Source: an uncultured Lachnospiraceae bacterium
Lineage (GTDB): Bacteria > Bacillota > Clostridia > Lachnospirales > Lachnospiraceae
NCBI GenBank assembly: GCA_947626285.1
Contig: CANQRR010000016.1
Location: 1-60,722 of the forward strand
Length of the DNA: 60,722 bases
Direction: 5' to 3'
Shown in pieces: positions 4,152-54,744 of the stretch. The notes under the pieces were generated by a model. The model was not told the origin of the DNA, made no database searches, and saw only the letters and a list, made by a program, of their open reading frames with translations. The position numbers and the translations under genes were made by a program. Every line of letters starts with the position of its first letter. Positions within the stretch are counted from its first letter, which is position 1.

Positions 4152-5171
4152 CTACCCCATTATCTCTTTCACTTGATTTTCAATCTGCTGCATGAGTCTG
4201 TATGTGTCGGCATGGCGCATTGATCCGAGTCTGCTCACATACGACCTGTTGAAAAATTCTTCCGATATTGTGCCATCTTCAAAGTTTTTGATAAGGCGTC
4301 TAAGCCTACGAATCGCACCTTTTCTCACTTTCTTCGTGGAGTTCCAATGCCTATAACCGACAAAATCAACGCCATTCTTCGCATAGACTATCGTGGTTTT
4401 CGGATTGAATGTCAATTTCAATTCTTCCGCAAGGAAAACCTCTATGCGCTCTTTCCACTCTCTCAGTTGCGCCAGATCGTCAGAAACGATAATGAAATCG
4501 TCCATATATCTCATATAATACTTGGCGCGTAGAGAGTGCTTTGCAAACACATCAACCTTATTCAGATACACGTTCGCAAACAACTGGCTTGTCAGGTTGC
4601 CGACCGGAATACCAACGCCGTCAGGGAATATCCCATTGTGGGCGATTATCGTATCAAGGATTGACAATAAATCCTGATCCTTGATGTACTTCCTGATCTC
4701 ATTCATAAGAATCTTATGGTCTACAGACTGGAAGTAGTGATGTATGTCACATTTCAGGACGTATACCGACTTTCCCTCAACCACCTCCAGATTGTATAGC
4801 CATCTCATTAGCTGATCGCTCGCCTTGTGTGATCCTTTTCCCTTGCGGCAAGCGTAGGAATGATATATAAATCTTTCCTCAAATATGGGTTCTATAAGGT
4901 TCACAATCATGTGTTGGATAACTCTGTCATAGAACGGCAGCGCCATGATGATCCGCTCTTTCGGTTCCCAAACTTTGAACACCTTATATTTCCCCGGATT
5001 GTAGCTGAGGTTTTTCAGATCGGATATTGCTCTTATAAGATTTTCCTCTCTGTTTCCCTCAAACTCCAATACCTCTTTCCTGTACCTCTTGCACTTCCGC
5101 GCTTTATTGTACGCAATCATGGCATTATCAAAGGTACATATCTTTTCCATGAGATCAGTTTTTCTTTTCAT
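4152..5171 (-). CDS. Diversity-generating retroelement reverse transcriptase
   Basis: 339 residues with the order of motifs of a DGR reverse transcriptase: RIIMALPFYDRVIQ (domain 2), VYVLKCDIHHYFQSVDH (domain 3), IPVGNLTSQLFANVYLN (domain 4, the GNxxSQ form typical of DGRs) and the catalytic YMRYMDDF. It copies the template repeat RNA at 5331-5456 into cDNA with errors at adenines, together with Avd, and the cDNA replaces the variable repeat in the target gene. No ribosome site is obvious before the ATG, so expression may rely on read-through from the leftward late transcript. Gene order target-avd-TR-RT is the usual one. Confidence 0.95.
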   Translation of the reverse strand: MKRKTDLMEKICTFDNAMIAYNKARKCKRYRKEVLEFEGNREENLIRAISDLKNLSYNPGKYKVFKVWEPKERIIMALPFYDRVIQHMIVNLIEPIFEERFIYHSYACRKGKGSHKASDQLMRWLYNLEVVEGKSVYVLKCDIHHYFQSVDHKILMNEIRKYIKDQDLLSILDTIIAHNGIFPDGVGIPVGNLTSQLFANVYLNKVDVFAKHSLRAKYYMRYMDDFIIVSDDLAQLREWKERIEVFLAEELKLTFNPKTTIVYAKNGVDFVGYRHWNSTKKVRKGAIRRLRRLIKNFEDGTISEEFFNRSYVSRLGSMRHADTYRLMQQIENQVKEIMG

Positions 5172-5330
5172 AATGATTTGCTTTCGCCATAATTTCTTTC
5201 GCTTGCGCTACTATCTGGCTTGGCTGTTGTAAATTTGCCTGAGTTTCACAGGACGGGATAACCGTCTGACTATTTTTATAAAATAATCCTTGTTGGCAAT
5301 CCTGAGATTAACCAATCTAACTGAAACATA

Positions 5331-5456
5331 GTCACAGACGCACCAGACGCCAATGTTCGTGTTGACGTTCCACGGGTAGTTGTTGCAATTCACCGTGCGC
5401 GAACCATCACGAACGCCGTTGTTCCAGTTGCCACCGGCAATCAGGGCGTGCAACCC
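5331..5456 (-). repeat. DGR template repeat (TR)
   Basis: 126 bases that align gaplessly with the variable repeat at 5976-6101. I count 14 differences, and every one falls on an adenine of the minus-strand TR, the signature of adenine-specific mutagenic retrohoming. AAC codons are dense in the homologous frame. The segment can be read as an open frame (5211-5453) but is best regarded as noncoding template RNA lying between avd and the RT gene. Confidence 0.95.
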
Positions 5457-5966: not shown

Positions 5967-7070
5967 TTACAGCGAGTCACAGACGCACCAGACGCCAACG
6001 CCCGTGTTGACGTGCCACGGGTAGCTGTTGCAACGCACCGCGCGCGAACCACCACGAACGCCGTCGTGCCAGCCGCCACCGGCAAGCAGGGCGTGCAACC
6101 CCGTTGCTGAGTACATCCACAACTGTCCAAATTCCTTACCCTGCATGGGATTGTACCAGTTACCGCTTGCGGCTGTCGGATCGTGGATCAGTTCGTCAAG
6201 CCACTTCCACACGTTTCCGACAAGATCGCGAACGTTCGTAGCAGAAACGGCGTTTTTCACGTTACCGCAAGTCGTTCTCGCCGTGTTGGAAGTTGCGGAC
6301 CATGCGTATGTGTTGTTACCATCTTCGCCCTGTGGAGAACCGTATGCGCCCTTGCAGAACTCAGCGTATGTAGGCAGCCTTTTCCCTACGCGCATTGACC
6401 TTTCATTGGCAACATACCAGTCAAGGCTCTCCGTACCTGTGATCGGCACAACGCCGTGCTTGCTCTGCAACCCACCGGCGCCATCGTCTGAGGACAGATA
6501 GATGTCACCCCAAAACGGACCGATGTATACCATTCCTGTCGGATCGCAAGTAGGTCTGTGCAGAAGTGTCCATACCGAGTTCGGGACGATGCCCTCATAC
6601 ACGTTTGTTTTCCAACCGCTGCCAAACTCCGCTGAGGAAGTGCTGATTGGATTACCCTTTTCATTGACCTTGCGGACAACTCCGTAGTGGAAACCGCCAA
6701 TCTTTCGGCTGTTCTCAGCAGTAAAGCCGTTCGGGAATGTCGTGTTCTTTGAAATCTTGTACTGCTCAGCCGCGAAGTTGGACGCATCTCCGCTCGTAGG
6801 ATCACAGATATAGATGCAATAGTCCTCGCCGACCTTGAAATCCTCTGCCGTGCCGTCCAGATTGCTCTTTGTCAGTGTGGTTTCTTCCGTCTTGAATACG
6901 GAACTGCCGACTGCGATCAGCACACCGGCCAGTATCGTCAACTGGCTTTCCGTTGCGGTGATAAACTTCTTTTCGCCAGTGACAACATCGGACATCAGCG
7001 CAAGTTTCGGAGTCGTGATCTTTGCGATCTCATTCTCCATGTTTTCATCATAACCGTAGAATTTACTCAT
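5967..7070 (-). CDS. DGR target: tail receptor-binding protein with C-type-lectin/FGE-like C-terminal domain
   Basis: 367 residues. The C-terminal half has formylglycine-generating-enzyme/C-lectin-fold marks: RLPTYAEFCKGAYGS, VRDLVGNVWKWLDEL and a final GVGVWCVCD strand. The variable repeat encodes roughly the last 45 residues, where AAC-derived positions now read G, H, D, G, A, R, S, H and G instead of N, D or T. The N-terminal half probably anchors it to the tail tip, being the last structural gene of the tail operon. It overlaps the upstream gene by 8 bases. Diversification would change host receptor specificity. Confidence 0.9.
   Translation of the reverse strand: MSKFYGYDENMENEIAKITTPKLALMSDVVTGEKKFITATESQLTILAGVLIAVGSSVFKTEETTLTKSNLDGTAEDFKVGEDYCIYICDPTSGDASNFAAEQYKISKNTTFPNGFTAENSRKIGGFHYGVVRKVNEKGNPISTSSAEFGSGWKTNVYEGIVPNSVWTLLHRPTCDPTGMVYIGPFWGDIYLSSDDGAGGLQSKHGVVPITGTESLDWYVANERSMRVGKRLPTYAEFCKGAYGSPQGEDGNNTYAWSATSNTARTTCGNVKNAVSATNVRDLVGNVWKWLDELIHDPTAASGNWYNPMQGKEFGQLWMYSATGLHALLAGGGWHDGVRGGSRAVRCNSYPWHVNTGVGVWCVCDSL
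5976..6101 (-). repeat. DGR variable repeat (VR)
   Basis: 126 bases at the 3' end of the target gene, matching the template repeat except at 14 template-adenine positions. The last 21 bases on the coding strand (5976-5996) are identical to TR and would contain the initiation-of-homing site. The stop codon follows within 10 bases. Confidence 0.95.
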
Positions 7071-7497
7071 TTTTCAGCTCCTCCTTGATCTGTTCCAGTT
7101 CAGCCTCAGTCATGCCAAGACTTTCATAGATTGTGTACGGCGCAGCGACCTCGATCAAATCGCCTGAAATCGTGGCAGAAAGTGTAAGCACCGTCTTTTC
7201 AAACTGAGGTTCCTCGCCCTCTTTCGGTTCGCCCTTTTCGTGTTGCACGGTTTCGATCTTGACGGTCTTGCCTCCGGCGATTGCCTTGCTGCCGGCCTTT
7301 GCCTCCGCGCAATAGTTGATAGTTACCGTTTTCTTATCTCCGCCGATTTCTACGATCTGGCACTGGAGATAATTCTGACGTTCCAGGGCGTCAATCGCCT
7401 CGGAAAGTTCTGACGCCTGAAAGGTGCCATTCTTCACAAGCTGCAAACAGTTACGAACGTCTGTAGCAGTTGCGAGTCTTTTGGGGAAATTTCTCAT
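7063..7497 (-). CDS. Tail-associated structural protein, unrecognised
   Basis: 144 residues with a helical N-terminus (NFPKRLATATDVRNCLQLVK), a beta-rich middle and an acidic helical end (TEAELEQIKEELKNE). Good GGAGGTAG ribosome site. It lies between a fibre-like protein and the DGR target with an 8-base overlap to the latter. Partnership with the target or tail fibre assembly is inferred from position only. Confidence 0.55.
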   Translation of the reverse strand: MRNFPKRLATATDVRNCLQLVKNGTFQASELSEAIDALERQNYLQCQIVEIGGDKKTVTINYCAEAKAGSKAIAGGKTVKIETVQHEKGEPKEGEEPQFEKTVLTLSATISGDLIEVAAPYTIYESLGMTEAELEQIKEELKNE

Positions 7498-17281: not shown

Positions 17282-17344
17282 TGTGCCACCCCGCGTAACA
17301 ACCCTGTCCGTAGGTGGTTTGTCCGTTTATATGAAAACATGAGG

Positions 17345-17366
17345 AAAGCGCCGGACTTGCGCTTTT
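17345..17366 (-). terminator. Hairpin between tail chaperone and tape measure genes
   Basis: AAAGCGC and GCGCTTT close a 7-bp stem with a short U-poor tail on the minus strand. It could lower expression of the tape measure relative to upstream tail genes or stabilise the upstream RNA. Confidence 0.45.
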
Positions 17367-17373
17367 CGGCTCG

Positions 17374-17865
17374 TCAGCCTATCCCCATGTAATCACCATG
17401 CTTTTTTCTCTTTTCCATGACTTTCCTACGATGTTCTGCCGCAAACGCCGCGAACCTCGCACCGTCCGTCATTTCGTCTTTGCCGCCATGCTTTTTCTCC
17501 ATTCCACGCGGCTCATTCGGGAAGTCCACATGATTTTTGCCCCACCATGCCCCCATAGCGTCCATTGTGTATGTGCCAATCAGCCATGCAAGCATATCGA
17601 GATACTTTACCTTTTCTTTCGCATCAATTTCCTTTGCGCGTCTAAAAGGCTCCAGTTTCTTTGGGTTCAGCTTGAAAAACAGTTCGTATGGTACACCGTA
17701 TCGCAATGCGTTCGGCAACCACACTTTATTGATTATCTCAGTAAAACTCTTGTACTTACTGAGGTCTATTTCATCATCGTCTCCGCCGTAGGAAGTGTCG
17801 CGATCGCTGTCGTTTCTGCCGTCTCTGTCGCAATCTCGTTCTCCGTTTCTTCCTCGGCTTTGCCA
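17374..17865 (-). CDS. Tail assembly chaperone GT extension, reached by -1 frameshift
   Basis: Open frame without its own good start that continues upstream into the previous gene. Joined at the slippery site 17865-17871 it yields a fusion of about 289 residues: 126 from the upstream gene plus 163 from here. Residues after the shift read WQSRGRNGERDC, then an acidic-basic linker, YGGDDDEIDLSKY and VWLPNALRYGVPYELFFKL. This matches the long tail-chaperone form of siphophages that recruits tape measure protein and tail tube subunits. A GTG at 17724 is unlikely to be a real start. Confidence 0.8.
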   Translation of the reverse strand, partial: WQSRGRNGERDCDRDGRNDSDRDTSYGGDDDEIDLSKYKSFTEIINKVWLPNALRYGVPYELFFKLNPKKLEPFRRAKEIDAKEKVKYLDMLAWLIGTYTMDAMGAWWGKNHVDFPNEPRGMEKKHGGKDEMTDGARFAAFAAEHRRKVMEKRKKHGDYMGIG

Positions 17866-19653: not shown

Positions 19654-19712
19654 TTTGATTACCTCCGTTTTTGTACCTTGCCCAGGGGTTGTTTGTGCCT
19701 TTGATATTAAAA

Positions 19713-19763
19713 CTACCGGCAGACGCTAGGCTTGCGCTTTTCGGGAGCTACCCTAGCCGGTAG
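19713..19763 (-). terminator. Terminator-like hairpin upstream of the tail tube gene
   Basis: Minus-strand CTACCGGC and GCCGGTAG close a long stem-loop with inner CTAGG/CCTAG pairing, followed by TTTTAATATC. It separates head-completion genes from the tail tube gene and may attenuate or process the late transcript. Confidence 0.6.
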
Positions 19764-27903: not shown

Positions 27904-29358
27904 CTACTCTACGGTAATGCACTCATATCTTTCAGAGTTGATAACCTTTTCCATAGCCTCAACCGGATTGTAACCGAGGTTTTCGAGAACGTGTCTGAAT
28001 ACCGTTACCGACTGCCCGCTTGCAAGCTGAACGCCTTTTTTATCCTTATCTGCATGGAATACATCGTGTCTGCTTGCCACATTCCAGAAGATGATGTTCG
28101 GGATCGTATAACCCTTTTTCTCGAACTTCGCCGCCATCTTGTCGTAGAATGTCCAGTCTTTGTTGCCGCTGCGGTCTATCTCCATATCGGAGATAACGAT
28201 GATCGCTTTCGGCATTTCTTCCTGTGGCACGTTGGCTTTCACGGCAATATCGAGAACCAGATCAAACGCGGCTTTCAGATCAGTGTTCATTCCCCACGGC
28301 GCTCTCATGGTGTTCCTCACTTTCTGGAACAGGGTATCTCCCTTTAGGCTGATGATGTTCGGGTGCTGGCTGAAAGTCAGGAACATATTGTGGTACTCTC
28401 CGACATTCCTCTCAGCGAAGTAGATTGCCAGTCCTACGGAGGTTGCCATCGGTCTGCCGCCCATTGAACCGGAAACGTCTGCCATAACAAGAGCGTTCGT
28501 TCCCTCGTCTATGTAGTTCGGCAGCGCTTTCCACTGTGCCTCATAGGTCCGGTCCTCTTTCGCGCCGTACCCCATGTAATGTCCCACGATGTCGTATGGG
28601 TACAGAGTATTTGCATTGATCTTCTGCTCTCCCTTTTCCACGGACGCAAGGTACTTCTCGTAGCCGTCTTTGTCGTGTTTCATAAAGGCTTTGCGGTAAA
28701 TCAGCATAGCGCGGCTTGGTACTGCGGAATATTTGATCTCGTCCCATCTTCCGGTAGACATCAGACTTTCCACTACCGCTATCTGCTTTCTCATACTTCT
28801 CACAATCCGTTTGAAGTTGTAAACCGGATAGCCTAACTTCTGTGCCGTCATGATGCCGAGTTTCCGTGTCTGTTCAGAACTCGCGTCAGCCGTCTTGATC
28901 CACTTTGCCAGGAGGGAGATCGAGTTGCCCTCGTTCAGATTTCTCAAATCTTCCTCAAACTGTTTCTTCATCGCCGCCCACATATCATCTTCGAGGCTTG
29001 TTCCGATCAGGGAATACAGATCGTCATACCGCCCAAACACGCCGATCAGATCGAGGTTCGGTCTTATTGCCCCCGGCTTGTGATCCGCCGCCCATCTCAG
29101 AATCGTGCGGAATGTCTTTCTCTCTCCGAGTCCGCCACGAATATCGCGGGCATAGAACAGTATCTTCGTTGCGAACAAAGCGTCCTCATTGTACGCATCT
29201 GCAAACAGGGTTGTGATCCTGCTATCATCAGCCTCTCTCAGAGAACCGATCGTGCCGTACAGATCAAGTAACGCGCTGCCGGTTGTATTCAGCGCGACCG
29301 CGCCATTCTCAGTTCTCGTGAACTTACCGGCATCTTTCATAGCATCAGCAAAACTCAT
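27904..29358 (-). CDS. DUF2828/TROVE-like protein with vWA domain (Ro60-like)
   Basis: 484 residues from the ATG at 29358, which has GAGAGGA at good spacing. Residues about 15-260 are helical repeats with ALLDLYGTIGSLR and KILFYARDIRGGLGERKTFR, typical of the DUF2828 branch of TROVE-like proteins. Residues about 265-480 are a von Willebrand A domain with an intact MIDAS: DVSGSMGG, a threonine in GMNTDLKAAF and ISDMEID. Ro60-type TROVE proteins are ring-shaped binders of Y RNAs and misfolded RNAs. Here the gene lies immediately downstream of tRNA-like and interrupted tRNA genes, so an RNA partner is likely though unproven. Confidence 0.8.
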   Translation of the reverse strand: MSFADAMKDAGKFTRTENGAVALNTTGSALLDLYGTIGSLREADDSRITTLFADAYNEDALFATKILFYARDIRGGLGERKTFRTILRWAADHKPGAIRPNLDLIGVFGRYDDLYSLIGTSLEDDMWAAMKKQFEEDLRNLNEGNSISLLAKWIKTADASSEQTRKLGIMTAQKLGYPVYNFKRIVRSMRKQIAVVESLMSTGRWDEIKYSAVPSRAMLIYRKAFMKHDKDGYEKYLASVEKGEQKINANTLYPYDIVGHYMGYGAKEDRTYEAQWKALPNYIDEGTNALVMADVSGSMGGRPMATSVGLAIYFAERNVGEYHNMFLTFSQHPNIISLKGDTLFQKVRNTMRAPWGMNTDLKAAFDLVLDIAVKANVPQEEMPKAIIVISDMEIDRSGNKDWTFYDKMAAKFEKKGYTIPNIIFWNVASRHDVFHADKDKKGVQLASGQSVTVFRHVLENLGYNPVEAMEKVINSERYECITVE

Positions 29359-29376
29359 AGCTTTCCTCTCTTTCCA

Positions 29377-29573
29377 TGACACATTGTACGGGATCGAACC
29401 GTTTGCACTCTAAGCAGAATGTTTTAACCTTTATAGATTGCTGTGTGTGTCACTATTGTGCATTGTTTTCAGTTACATTTTCATGACGCCTTATCAGAAG
29501 AAATTTGCAGTTTCTTGGATTGTTTTGATTGCTGTAAGCGTCACGGTATAAGCATTATGGCATTATGCTTTTG
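29377..29573 (-). ncRNA. tRNA-like noncoding RNA region upstream of the DUF2828 gene
   Basis: This stretch ends (minus strand) in a T-arm-like ACGGTTCGATCCCGT and lacks a normal cloverleaf. It holds two copies of the motif ACAGCAATC (at about 29529 and 29440), the same block found in the insertions of neighbouring split tRNA genes. It also holds a perfect anticodon-arm-like hairpin AAGAAA-CTGCAAA-TTTCTT with a Cys (GCA) loop. It could be a decayed tRNA-Cys, or a Y-RNA-like tRNA mimic for the protein encoded 20 bases downstream. I cannot choose. Confidence 0.5.
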
Positions 29574-29704
29574 TGAAGATGCAAGGAATCGAACCCTGAT
29601 CCGCAGCTTGGGAATTGTGAAAGTAACTTTGCTGATTATGCCACATAAACATGACATTCATTTTCTACAATATAGCTGCTGTGCTACCGTTGCACCACAT
29701 CTCC
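29574..29704 (-). tRNA. tRNA-Gly (CCC) with an insertion of about 60 nt in the anticodon loop
   Basis: Acceptor GGAGATG/CATCTTC with one G-T, D arm GTGC/GCAC, T stem CAGGG/CCTTG, discriminator A. The complete anticodon stem is GCAGC/GCTGC, but between position 31 or 32 and the loop TTCCCAA lies an insertion. The insertion folds as TTGTAGAAA/TTTCACAA enclosing hairpin TGTCA/TGGCA and ATCAGCAAA. Removing it gives a canonical tRNA-Gly. Confidence 0.75.
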
Positions 29705-29708
29705 ATTG

Positions 29709-29834
29709 TTGCGCGGGGCGGACTCGAACCGCCGACACCGACCTCCATATGGTATGCTATAAGATTGCAGTATGAACCACGGATCATGATTCACTTTTTC
29801 GCTTTCGTGCTCTAACCAACTGAGCTACCGCGCA
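29709..29834 (-). tRNA. tRNA with an insertion of about 52 nt in the anticodon arm, identity uncertain
   Basis: Acceptor TGCGCGG/CCGCGCA, D arm GCTC/GAGC and T arm GGCGG/CCGCC are perfect. The anticodon stem is complete only if CGA is joined to CC across the insertion (CGACC/GGTCG). The loop would then be ATATGGA (anticodon ATG), unusual, so the splice point or identity may differ. The insertion carries hairpin AATCA/TGGTT and TACTGCAATC. Confidence 0.65.
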
Positions 29835-29838
29835 ACCG

Positions 29839-29961
29839 CGAGGCGGGTAGGAATCGAACCTACGACAAACGGCTTAACAGGCTTGAAGAGTATTGCTGTT
29901 AGTTCCACGATACATGAAACATTCTTCTTTTTCGTTGCTCTACCAACTGAGCTACCGCCTC
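29839..29961 (-). tRNA. tRNA-Asn (GTT) with an insertion of about 50 nt in the anticodon stem
   Basis: Acceptor GAGGCGG/CCGCCTC, D arm GCTC/GAGC, T arm GTAGG/CCTAC, discriminator G as in tRNA-Asn. ACG and GC flank the insertion. Joined they give ACGGC-CTGTTAA-GCCGT, a perfect Asn anticodon arm. The insertion folds as GAAGA/TCTTC enclosing TTTCA/TGGAA and AACAGCAATAC. A second, uninterrupted tRNA-Asn is at 31272-31344. Confidence 0.75.
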
Positions 29962-29965
29962 GAAG

Positions 29966-30087
29966 TGGGGAAGAGTGGACTCGAACCACTAAATCCAAAG
30001 TTTCCTGTAGGTAATTTTGCTGTCAATGCCACTCAACATGACACATTTTCCTTTTGACTTTTGCGTTTACCATTTCGCCACTTCCCC
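29966..30087 (-). tRNA. tRNA with an insertion of about 49 nt in the anticodon arm, Leu-like D arm
   Basis: Acceptor GGGGAAG/CTTCCCC, T arm AGTGG/CCACT, D arm GCG-AAATGGTAAA-CGC, discriminator A. AAAGT and ACTTT could form the anticodon stem, with the insertion inside the loop. The mature anticodon is not clear to me. The insertion has hairpin TGTCA/TGGCA and GACAGCAAAATTAC, closest to the one in the tRNA-Gly gene. Confidence 0.6.
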
Positions 30088-30338
30088 AATATTCAGTTAA
30101 AAAGATGGTTCTTCGCCCCAAAGGAACCTTTGAGAATTGGCTATGCCGCCATTTCCTCGCCGTTTCTCTTAACCGCTACACAGCGCAGCACCACAGAGCG
30201 GTGGACTTGATTAAGAAATTCCGTACACTCAATTTGGCTTGTTTTGATGCTCCCCTAGCCACCGGGGAATGTCGATAGGAACTCTTTTCGGGAAATCTCT
30301 CAAACCCAACTGGTTTAATGAGCGAAGTCAGCTCAGCT

Positions 30339-30558
30339 TGGATAGGAAAGGACTCGAACCTTTCATGCGAATCATTCACAACAGTCACGGATAACCTCAT
30401 GTATTCGGTGCAATATGGATTTTTGAACCTGTTGTGTTGTCGGGTGGTGGCGGCCATATCTGCTTATTCCAATCACCGTACTTTGCCATCAGTGCCACAT
30501 CGGATCGCCCCGTTTCGCTCAACCATAATTTTGTAGCGTCTCCTTTGCGCCTCTATCC
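30339..30558 (-). tRNA. Possible tRNA split by an insertion of about 140 nt
   Basis: The 3' half is good: T arm AAAGG/CCTTT, then CCTATCC and discriminator A. A matching GGATAG with a D-arm-like GCG-CAAAGGAGA-CGC occurs 200 bases upstream at 30533-30558. Between them lie a TTATCCGTGACTG stretch related to the other insertions and a His-like loop TTGTGAA. Could equally be a decayed tRNA. The 250 bases on its left (30088-30338) hold no gene I can support. Confidence 0.35.
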
Positions 30559-30600
30559 AATTCTGCAAACACGCATCACCGGTTATGTATGTCTGCATAG

Positions 30601-30768: not shown

Positions 30769-31192
30769 ATATATTTCTTTCAAAATGGGGCAGAAAGCGT
30801 TGTGTTCCCGCCCCGCTTATAGGCTTAGACGTTTCAAAGAGAAACTTATCAATTTCGCATATATCTGTCTGCCGGTAAGCATCTTCGCAATCGGCTGATT
30901 GTGTGTTCCCATGCTCACATACCTACCGGCTGCATCTAAGGATCGTGCCGACTGCGAACTGCTGCGTAGGGGATCAGTGGTTCATGCCTCCGGCACACCT
31001 TTTCCTCCCCGTACGACTGCAATCCGATAAATCGGACAGGAAGAACAACGATAATCGAAAAACTCAGTTTAACAATCACATTGTACCCTCCCTTGCTCTG
31101 TCCCTGTTGTGGCGATGCCCTACCAGCCTTGCCTTTTGAACATAAGCCTCGCCCGTGCCTATGTGCGGTCCTTTAACGGTTGATAGGACATA
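30769..31192. other. Gene-poor stretch within the tRNA block
   Basis: No convincing gene. The best candidate is a minus-strand 47-codon frame starting GTG at about 31083 after GGAGGGTACAAT, with a hydrophobic start (VIVKLSFSIIVVLPVRFIGL). It lacks other support. Confidence 0.3.
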
Positions 31193-31264: not shown

Positions 31265-31271
31265 ATGCAAA

Positions 31272-31344
31272 CTGGAGAAGTAGGACTCGAACCTACAACG
31301 ACCTGATTAACGGTCAGGCGCTCTACCAGTTGAGCTATTCTCCA
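31272..31344 (-). tRNA. tRNA-Asn (GTT), uninterrupted
   Basis: 73 bases, anticodon stem CCTGA/TCAGG around CCGTTAA, discriminator G. Bases 31345-31590 after it are gene-free, with several GC-rich hairpins. Confidence 0.9.
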
Positions 31345-31590
31345 ATACTCAGGCAAAGGTTGAATGGTCCCCTTGCCTGATATGCAGCGTTAAGCCGCTG
31401 CCTACTCTGCGGTAGCCTCACGGTAGGCGTGTCTTTTTTGACCGCCCTCAGAGTGCCATGTACCGCACCCTCCTTATTGGTGTGCAGTCGCTTGTCCGCA
31501 ACCCACACCGAGCGCCGCCATGCGTTATTCGCCTATCGGCAATCGCTCACGGTCACTCTAGGAGCGCCCCACGCACTATGTACATGGGAA

Positions 31591-53492: not shown

Positions 53493-53553
53493 ATTATCCG
53501 GCGCTCTCTGCTCTGTAAGTAGGGAGCGCTGATTTATGCGGAGGACAACAGGA

Positions 53554-54744
53554 ATGAAAAATTTGAAAATCTTTACGAATATCGTTGAGCAGGAGGCTCT
53601 GGATCAGATCAATACTCTGCTATCACAGGAGGCTTTCAAGGACTGCAAAGTGCGGATCATGCCGGACGTTCATGCCGGAAAAGGTTGTGTGATAGGCTTT
53701 ACCGCGAACCTCGGTGACAAGGTAATTCCGAATATCGTAGGCGTGGATATTGGGTGTGGAATGTTGTGTGTCAAGCTGAAAGACCGCGTTATTGACTTTG
53801 CAAAACTGGATAAAGTGATCCACGAGTACGTCCCATATGGGCGAAATGTGCATGAAAGCAGAACGGACAAAGACACTCTGCAGGAGTTGAGATGTTTCCG
53901 TGAACTGAGAGAAGTGCCGTGGCTCATGAAATCACTCGGAACTCTCGGCGGCGGCAACCACTTTATCGAAGTGGATCATGACAGCATCGGCGATCTTTAC
54001 CTGATTATTCATACCGGCAGCCGTAATCTCGGAAAACAGGTTGCCGAGATATACCAGAACCTTGCTATCGATCTGATGTCCGGCAAAGACGAACTGTTTG
54101 AGCAGCAGGAAAAGCTGATTGAGGACTATAAGAAAGCCGGACGGAGAACCGAAATACAGGGCGCTCTCAGGGAACTTCGCAAGAATTTCAAGGCGCACAA
54201 CCCGAATATCCCGAAAGACCTCTGCTATCTGACCGGCAAGTACCGCGAGGACTATCTTCATGATATGGCTATATGCCAGGACTTCGCAAGGAGAAACCGT
54301 GAGAAGATCGCCGAGATCATCATAGAAAAGGCCAAACTTACTCCGTGTGACGCTTTCCATACCATACACAACTACATTGACATGGACTCAAACATCGTGC
54401 GTAAGGGCGCTATCTCCGCGAAATACGGCGAGAAACTGCTGATCCCTATAAATATGCGTGACGGCTGCATTTTCGGCGTAGGCAAGGGGAATGACGATTG
54501 GAACTGCTCAGCGCCGCACGGTGCCGGTAGGATCATGTCTAGGACAAAGGCAAGGGAAACGCTCAAAATCGAGGACTATCAGGACTCCATGATCGGCATA
54601 TACACTACTTCCGTATCTTCTGATACCATTGACGAGGCACCGATGGCATACAAGCCGATGCAGGAGATCGTTGACAGCATTGAACCTACGGTTGAGATTT
54701 TGGATATTCTGAAACCAGTCTATAACTTTAAGGCAAGTGAGTGA
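53554..54744 (+). CDS. rtcB: RtcB RNA ligase
   Basis: 396 residues from ATG 53554 (GGAGGACAACAGG precedes). All RtcB marks are present: MPDVHAGKGCVIGF, VGVDIGCGMLCVK (metal-binding D and C), SLGTLGGGNHFIEV, HTGSRNLGKQV, HTIHNYIDMD and SAPHGAGRIMSRT with the guanylated histidine. RtcB joins 3'-phosphate or cyclic-phosphate ends to 5'-OH ends, as at tRNA introns in archaea and eukaryotes and in bacterial tRNA repair. Here it may act on the interrupted tRNAs or repair nuclease-cut tRNAs. Confidence 0.95.
   Translation: MKNLKIFTNIVEQEALDQINTLLSQEAFKDCKVRIMPDVHAGKGCVIGFTANLGDKVIPNIVGVDIGCGMLCVKLKDRVIDFAKLDKVIHEYVPYGRNVHESRTDKDTLQELRCFRELREVPWLMKSLGTLGGGNHFIEVDHDSIGDLYLIIHTGSRNLGKQVAEIYQNLAIDLMSGKDELFEQQEKLIEDYKKAGRRTEIQGALRELRKNFKAHNPNIPKDLCYLTGKYREDYLHDMAICQDFARRNREKIAEIIIEKAKLTPCDAFHTIHNYIDMDSNIVRKGAISAKYGEKLLIPINMRDGCIFGVGKGNDDWNCSAPHGAGRIMSRTKARETLKIEDYQDSMIGIYTTSVSSDTIDEAPMAYKPMQEIVDSIEPTVEILDILKPVYNFKASE

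Follow-up and report, generated by a model that had tools for sequence, protein, structure and literature searches.

Among described systems, the closest to the RNAs considered here are the YrlA Y RNAs (Rfam RF02553) that accompany Ro60/Rsr and are likewise small RNAs adjoining a Ro-like gene. YrlA combines a tRNA-like part with a stem in which both ends of the RNA pair. Protein-spliced tRNA introns of archaea and eukaryotes resemble the insertions described below in being short and placed in the anticodon arm, where they usually sit after base 37; group I introns have a catalytic core that Rfam recognises and are usually longer than 200 nt. Y RNAs beside Ro-like genes are also known from mycobacteriophages (Chen 2014, as cited in PMC12282133). 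The latter paper describes, in Listeria phage CKA15, a protein (CKA15_055) encoded beside tRNAs, with an HHpred match to Rsr and detected in virions; non-coding RNAs of very high abundance come from the same neighbourhood, and its authors propose that these may be Y RNAs (PMC12282133). PrrC is a tRNA-Lys anticodon nuclease according to PMC2610378, and PMC7790460 suggests that the tRNA-like part of YrlA could competitively inhibit an anticodon nuclease. Phage tRNAs evading such nucleases, which attack anticodon loops, are described as tRNAs in PMC10264068 and PMC11555353, and the words 'intron', 'insertion' and 'Y RNA' are absent from the text of the former; the RNAs described here, in contrast, carry a putative handle or show an anticodon arm alone. 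The literature searched, which took in little of the subscription and preprint literature, contained no account of short covarying insertions in phage tRNAs, nothing on Ro or Y RNAs in phages besides PMC12282133, PMC7790460 and brief mentions, only plant work on DUF2828 under that name, and no demonstrated function for the DUF2828 ('Ro-like') phage relatives.

Interrupted tRNA-like genes in the window and in other phages

The window, that is the whole stretch of DNA analysed, is a 60,722-bp contig of a 3.7 Mb assembly. It carries terminase, portal and major head protein genes as well as 11 ordinary tRNAs, and is a tailed phage or prophage. Four tRNA-like genes spaced 4 nt apart occupy positions 29574-30087 of the minus strand, each with an insertion of 49-60 nt in the anticodon arm (Table 1), confirming the arrangement reported in the initial annotation. 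Rfam RF00005 detected three of them with their long insertions (44.5-50.1 bits; gathering score 29), ARAGORN run on the window reported none of the four, and a structural tRNA scan written for this analysis recovered all four, including 29574-29704. The stretch between D and T arms measured 72, 73, 75 and 82 nt; that annotation gave 72-85 bases. Its description of perfect stems holds for 29574-29704 (acceptor 7/7, D stem 4/4, T stem 5/5) and is a little too strong for 29966-30087, where three of four D-stem pairs form. Removal of the insertion reproduced both anticodons that it had proposed, 29574-29704 giving Gly(CCC) and 29839-29961 giving Asn(GUU). Each insertion in the window contains a single hairpin (6 bp, A-U closed, loop UG...G) followed by the motif NNA-CAGCAA. 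A self-splicing group I intron was considered and rejected: Rfam yielded no group I match, whether at gathering score over the window or at E 1 near the array, and the insertions, at 41-60 nt, are very short.

Table 1. Features of the window that bear on the interrupted tRNA-like genes
Feature	Position	Strand	Evidence and remarks
DUF2828 + DUF7788 gene	27904..29358	-	directly downstream of array; phrog_850 'RNA-binding protein'; alternative start GTG 29382
Free-standing module 2	29375..29453	-	GTGACAC-AC-ACAGCAA ... GTGTCATG; T-arm inside
Free-standing module 1	29482..29544	-	stem from both ends, GTGACGC-TT-ACAGCAA ... GCGTCATG; encloses perfect anticodon stem-loop
Anticodon stem-loop in module 1	29498-29516	-	AAGAAA-CTGCAAA-TTTCTT, type Cys GCA
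tRNA-like gene 4	29574..29704	-	structural scan; hairpin + motif 29629-29657; restored arm GCAGC-TTCCCAA-GCTGC, anticodon CCC (Gly)
tRNA-like gene 3	29709..29834	-	RF00005 44.5 bits; hairpin + motif 29765-29792; restored arm CGACC-ATATGGA-GGTCG (AUG, unusual A34)
tRNA-like gene 2	29839..29961	-	RF00005 50.1 bits; hairpin + motif 29893-29920; restored arm ACGGC-CTGTTAA-GCCGT, anticodon GUU (Asn)
tRNA-like gene 1	29966..30087	-	RF00005 46.5 bits + structural scan; hairpin + motif 30017-30044; insertion deleted, no canonical anticodon loop
Intact tRNA-Asn(GUU)	31271-31345		ARAGORN; same isotype as restored gene 2
RtcB RNA ligase	53536..54744	+	same phage; PF01139 1.3e-58; phrog_1075

Further interrupted tRNAs were sought by DNA pattern scans of IMG/VR in which protein was not used, followed by a tRNA scan, and the DUF2828 + DUF7788 protein used as query retrieved 16 viral loci. 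After removal of identical sequences there were at least 56 distinct interrupted candidates, six of which, some genuine in appearance, were dropped before alignment (L022 at 2231 and 3453; L147 at 9017; L133 at 6054, 6754 and 7101). The remaining 50 aligned distinct tRNA-like sequences come from the window, its four genes among them, and from 29 virus records. All six hairpin pairs are altered on both sides within this alignment, with 70 double-changed cells compared with 17.5 in shuffles, and 97.0% of hairpin cells pair compared with 74.2% in shuffles; sliding the 3' hairpin strand by 1-3 columns lowered pairing to 30-45%. The insertions are accordingly homologous and share a covarying hairpin, as had been claimed from the four window genes, and the occurrence of this hairpin in other phage tRNA arms, which the initial annotation had predicted, is borne out in at least 29 virus records. 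The motif after the hairpin is NNA-CAGCAA, with ACUGCAA or UCAGCAA in some members. Insertions follow bases 26-33 in 48 of the 50 sequences and bases 37-38 in the other two, bases 27-29 accounting for 30, where each position given is the first of any tied solutions. Synechococcus phage B23 has one interrupted gene, annotated 'tRNA-OTHER', an example of how tRNA finders miss or misname such genes, and two human gut scaffolds carry three (MT837596) and one (MT838485). With filters that lose weak matches, interrupted tRNAs were found in two of 291 genomes of the host's class, one being the window's own.

The adjacent DUF2828 gene and its probable remote kinship to Ro60

The same stem with ACAGCAA, hereafter the module, also occurs outside tRNAs, as predicted free-standing RNAs beside DUF2828/DUF7788 genes. 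Of the 29 virus records that hold interrupted tRNAs, 24 contain DUF2828. Eight of the 29 had been found through DUF2828; of the 21 recovered by DNA pattern alone, 16 have it, and the five without it are 5-35 kb long. No DUF2828 was detected in 50 control virus records of 31 to 340 kb from the same pattern scans. A module lies on the DUF2828 strand within 2 kb of the gene in 21 of 24 viral or phage loci (68 modules sense, 1 antisense), and modules near DUF2828 occur at 0.73 per kb compared with 0.033 per strand-kb in 208 control loci that were themselves chosen partly by CAGCAA patterns. Across the host's class, DUF2828 scored above cut-off in 12 of 291 genomes, and open modules were present in 10 of the 11 neighbourhoods besides the window's. 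Relatives of the DUF2828 ('Ro-like') protein were found in 682 of 50,697 phage records.

In the DUF2828 + DUF7788 protein a vWA domain with D-x-SGSM comes after a helical part, an order shared with Ro60/TROVE proteins (PF05731; vWA_Ro60, PF25045), from which it differs in matching DUF2828 and DUF7788 instead of PF05731 and in the remoteness of the similarity. The window protein gave no PF05731 match at E up to 1, its matches being DUF2828, DUF7788 and, weakly, VWA_2 and DUF7281. Alignment with hhalign of three TROVE/Ro60 proteins from the host's phylum, the first of which matches the Rsr structure 2nvo (3.5e-18), to 14 DUF2828 proteins gave a probability of 69% and an E value of 4.3e-5 over 167 columns, which run from the last portion of the helical part through the vWA motif. 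A HMMER profile search of the PDB with the DUF2828 protein returned a vWA match only. Mycobacteriophage records annotate the homologue as 'Ro-like RNA binding protein'. On these sequence comparisons the DUF2828 protein is likely a remote relative of Ro60. CKA15_055 is presumed to be its homologue. Mapping of the abundant CKA15 RNAs onto the modules of a relative, Listeria phage VEfB7 (L269), gave no certain assignment and is not used as evidence of expression. Near the Ro-like gene of VEfB7, at about 4400-5040 of the locus, a strong promoter-like TTGACA/TATAGT precedes a stretch of about 600 nt in which no gene is annotated; this stretch may be the counterpart of the abundant RNA of the related phage CKA15.

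Free-standing modules and their relation to Y RNAs

Two free-standing modules lie in the window between the array and the DUF2828 gene (Table 1). Module 2 falls within the 5' untranslated region of that gene if translation starts at ATG 29358, and its final strand (29375-29382, minus strand) ends at the GTG that the ORF finder takes as the DUF2828 start. A module immediately ahead of the DUF2828 gene recurs at five further loci (L009, L010, L015, L022 and L266), and this recurrence suggests autoregulation.

In 31 chosen neighbourhoods, which include L296, a locus with modules and no DUF2828 match on its 3.9 kb contig, 85 open modules were identified, 16 with a T arm inside and 63 short and lacking a T arm; left out of this set were L021, with at least one module, and L268, L271, L272 and L295, with none. 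A perfect anticodon stem-loop, defined by a stem of at least 5 bp (5-6 observed), a seven-base loop, U33, a purine at 37 and A38, was present in 15 of the 63 short modules, compared with a mean of 0.69 and a maximum of 3 in 100 dinucleotide shuffles. The anticodons displayed were Lys UUU (five), Asn GUU (four), Ser GCU (three) and Cys GCA, Thr GGU and Leu UAA (one each), with six of the 15 stem-loops coming from three related loci (L018-L020). The other 48 short modules have no such stem-loop, and an earlier scan of mixed loci with a loose rule had found displayed arms in 5 of 38 against 1.7 in its control. Since these short modules show anticodon arms without a tRNA body, display of the arm needs no splicing; and because there is no body to splice, display by short free RNAs seems to be a purpose in itself.

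Other arrangements of the same parts were also observed. The tRNA array of Bacillus phage FADO precedes its DUF2828 gene, and there the stem and ACAGC come from the two ends while the interior reads, by eye, as a permuted tRNA; at 7070-7190 of this locus (L264) the layout is that of a circularly permuted tRNA-Thr(UGU) whose ends pair as the module stem. Permuted or shortened module forms occur in LeBron (L265), E. coli phage EP1 (L273) and Bacillus phage BcoS-136. An open module at 2943-3050 of L296 (genome G367) encloses an entire tRNA-like fold whose anticodon loop has six bases.

The DUF2828-linked RNAs share with Y RNAs the features of being encoded beside a Ro-like gene and having a tRNA-like part. 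Their RF02553 scores are 35-40 bits, the best being 39.8 in the LeBron region, below the gathering score of 69. RF02553 matches beside true TROVE genes, at 39.8 and 39.9 bits, are equally below it, so the gathering score does not separate the two groups. The match of 39.9 bits (L281, 2475-2609, minus strand) lies beside a true TROVE gene; by eye it has the layout of a permuted tRNA and includes an Asn(GUU) anticodon stem-loop. This match strengthens the kinship to Y RNAs, and display of an anticodon arm may therefore not be special to DUF2828 phages. Three features of the DUF2828-linked RNAs are new with respect to YrlA: an NN-ACAGCAA signature, of which four TROVE loci gave just two weak matches; single displayed anticodon stem-loops; and a module placed within a full tRNA whose acceptor end is open. 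The RNAs are consistent with a variant of the Y-RNA kind set apart from RF02553, the separation from RF02553 being a soft one.

A proposed role as tRNA mimics that dock a Ro-like protein

The window genes are probably Y-RNA-like tRNA mimics, in which the insertion would be a retained handle for the adjacent Ro60-like protein and not a spliced intron. The tRNA, or just its anticodon arm, would be the displayed part and the stem with ACAGCAA the protein-binding part. These parts would be combined in different orders: a stem formed by the ends and showing one anticodon stem-loop, a permuted tRNA, a whole tRNA within the stem or, as in the window, a stem closed by a UG...G loop and grafted into the anticodon arm. 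With insertion after bases 27-29, the anticodon loop would sit on the other branch of a three-way junction. We infer that the RNAs are produced, that the DUF2828 protein binds the module, and that the insertion stays in the mature RNA. The resulting particle may act as decoy, sensor or repair platform for tRNAs hit by anticodon nucleases. The arrangement recurs in many phages, and its target is possibly the tRNA-cutting defences of bacteria. A broader idea is put forward tentatively, namely that a Ro-like RNP is deployed by tailed phages that infect many different hosts and is equipped with a set of small RNAs. Each of these would present one selected tRNA's anticodon arm (Lys UUU, Asn GUU, Ser GCU, Thr GGU and others) and serve as bait or sensor against tRNA-cutting immunity, the handle in a whole tRNA being one form. 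Now that a candidate RNA partner is available and can be recognised by a short signature, the DUF2828 system can be tested, both for the RNA bound and for blunting of anticodon nucleases.

The alternative that the insertions are true introns, excised by an unknown endonuclease while the DUF2828 protein perhaps holds the RNA, and sealed by RtcB or a host ligase to give working tRNAs, is considered unlikely, even though part of the evidence speaks for it. Removal of the insertion left a good anticodon arm (at least 13 of 15 points) in 39 of 50 genes, compared with 25% when halves were exchanged among loci, a control that is easier because of related families; 33 of the 50 reached 14 or 15 points. 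Across the insertion, pairs 27:43 and 28:42 are present in 91 of 100 cases, compared with 39 with swapped halves. The 39 restored arms count against the handle; bases 29-31 and U33, among those restored, would be of no use to a bare handle. Several interrupted genes, however, among them window gene 1, have no U33 or no canonical arm upon removal. The isotype of the body agrees with that of the anticodon in only 4 of 44 interrupted genes, close to what shuffled labels give (2.05 on average, with 14% of shuffles attaining 4), compared with 62 of 140 ordinary class I tRNAs; this test takes the nearest body by sequence among 140 reference tRNAs, with junctions that are partly ambiguous, and omits four of the six dropped candidates and all genes below 12 points. 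Single bodies carry two anticodons (GTG and GGG; GGT and TTT), and UGA on class I bodies and A34 occur among the interrupted genes. Some of these genes have an intact counterpart of equal isotype in their own phage, as with the window Asn gene, Thr in L057 and L165, and Pro in L254. By eye, the paired ends of the insertion lie at varying distances from the junction, and their pairing barely exceeds its control (3.94 and 3.68 bp); a P1 helix between the intron ends, convincing by eye, is not claimed on this control.

The window has an RtcB gene, a further likeness to protein-spliced introns, yet the 29 virus records that carry interrupted genes, many of them fragments, yielded no RtcB, and it was rejected as a general partner. 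An archaeal-type tRNA endonuclease (PF01974), for which four archaea gave positive controls, was detected in none of 33 records (the 29 and four named phages, many of them fragments); Rnl2-type RNA_ligase was present in 6 of the 33 (2 of the 29) and a T4-type ligase in 2 of the 33 (none of the 29). The host could supply the missing activities. The absence of this endonuclease from the 33 records, the prevalent site after bases 27-29 and the sharing of the module with RNAs other than tRNAs all differ from protein-spliced introns. Failures of arm restoration, weak end pairing, disagreement of body and anticodon, shared bodies and duplicated tRNAs favour the handle over excision. Of the intron interpretation in the initial annotation, homologous covarying insertions in the anticodon arms of many phages are retained; an excised intron as the best reading is not, given the modules outside tRNAs, the splicing enzymes not detected in these partly fragmentary records and the mismatched bodies.

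The anticodon arms might instead be relics of decaying tRNA genes that serve as raw material for Y-like RNAs, in line with window gene 1 and several others that lack a canonical arm and with bodies that carry two anticodons; the precise stem-loops of 5-6 bp kept in 15 free modules are unexpected of relics, and we regard this origin as improbable. Least credible of all is a tiny mobile RNA or DNA element that enters tRNA anticodon arms and is otherwise neutral. It would account for the many tRNA bodies and the several insertion positions, but not for the tight linkage to one gene family, the strand bias beside it or the structural covariation, and the loci compared included no intron-less twin that reached 85% identity across most of its length, the best intron-less match being 83%, to tRNAs that lie elsewhere in the same assembly, on a different contig.

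Other features of the window were noted. An extra tRNA-like 3' end (T arm and acceptor strand) is present at 30341-30560 on the minus strand and has no ACAGCAA; a matching acceptor strand, GGATAG, lies about 200 nt away, and to the eye it is a broken or differently interrupted tRNA. The inter-tRNA stretches 30100-30330, 30780-31180 and 31350-31590, which had no Rfam match above cut-off, may hold further non-coding RNAs. At 4152-5453 (minus strand) a reverse transcriptase (RVT_1) is followed by a short ORF with a NNGVRDGSRTVNCNNYPWNVNTNIG-type stretch, an arrangement that resembles a diversity-generating retroelement. Two int-alpA RNA matches above the Rfam cut-off, at 17324-17389 and 19698-19763 (minus strand), occur in this one phage.
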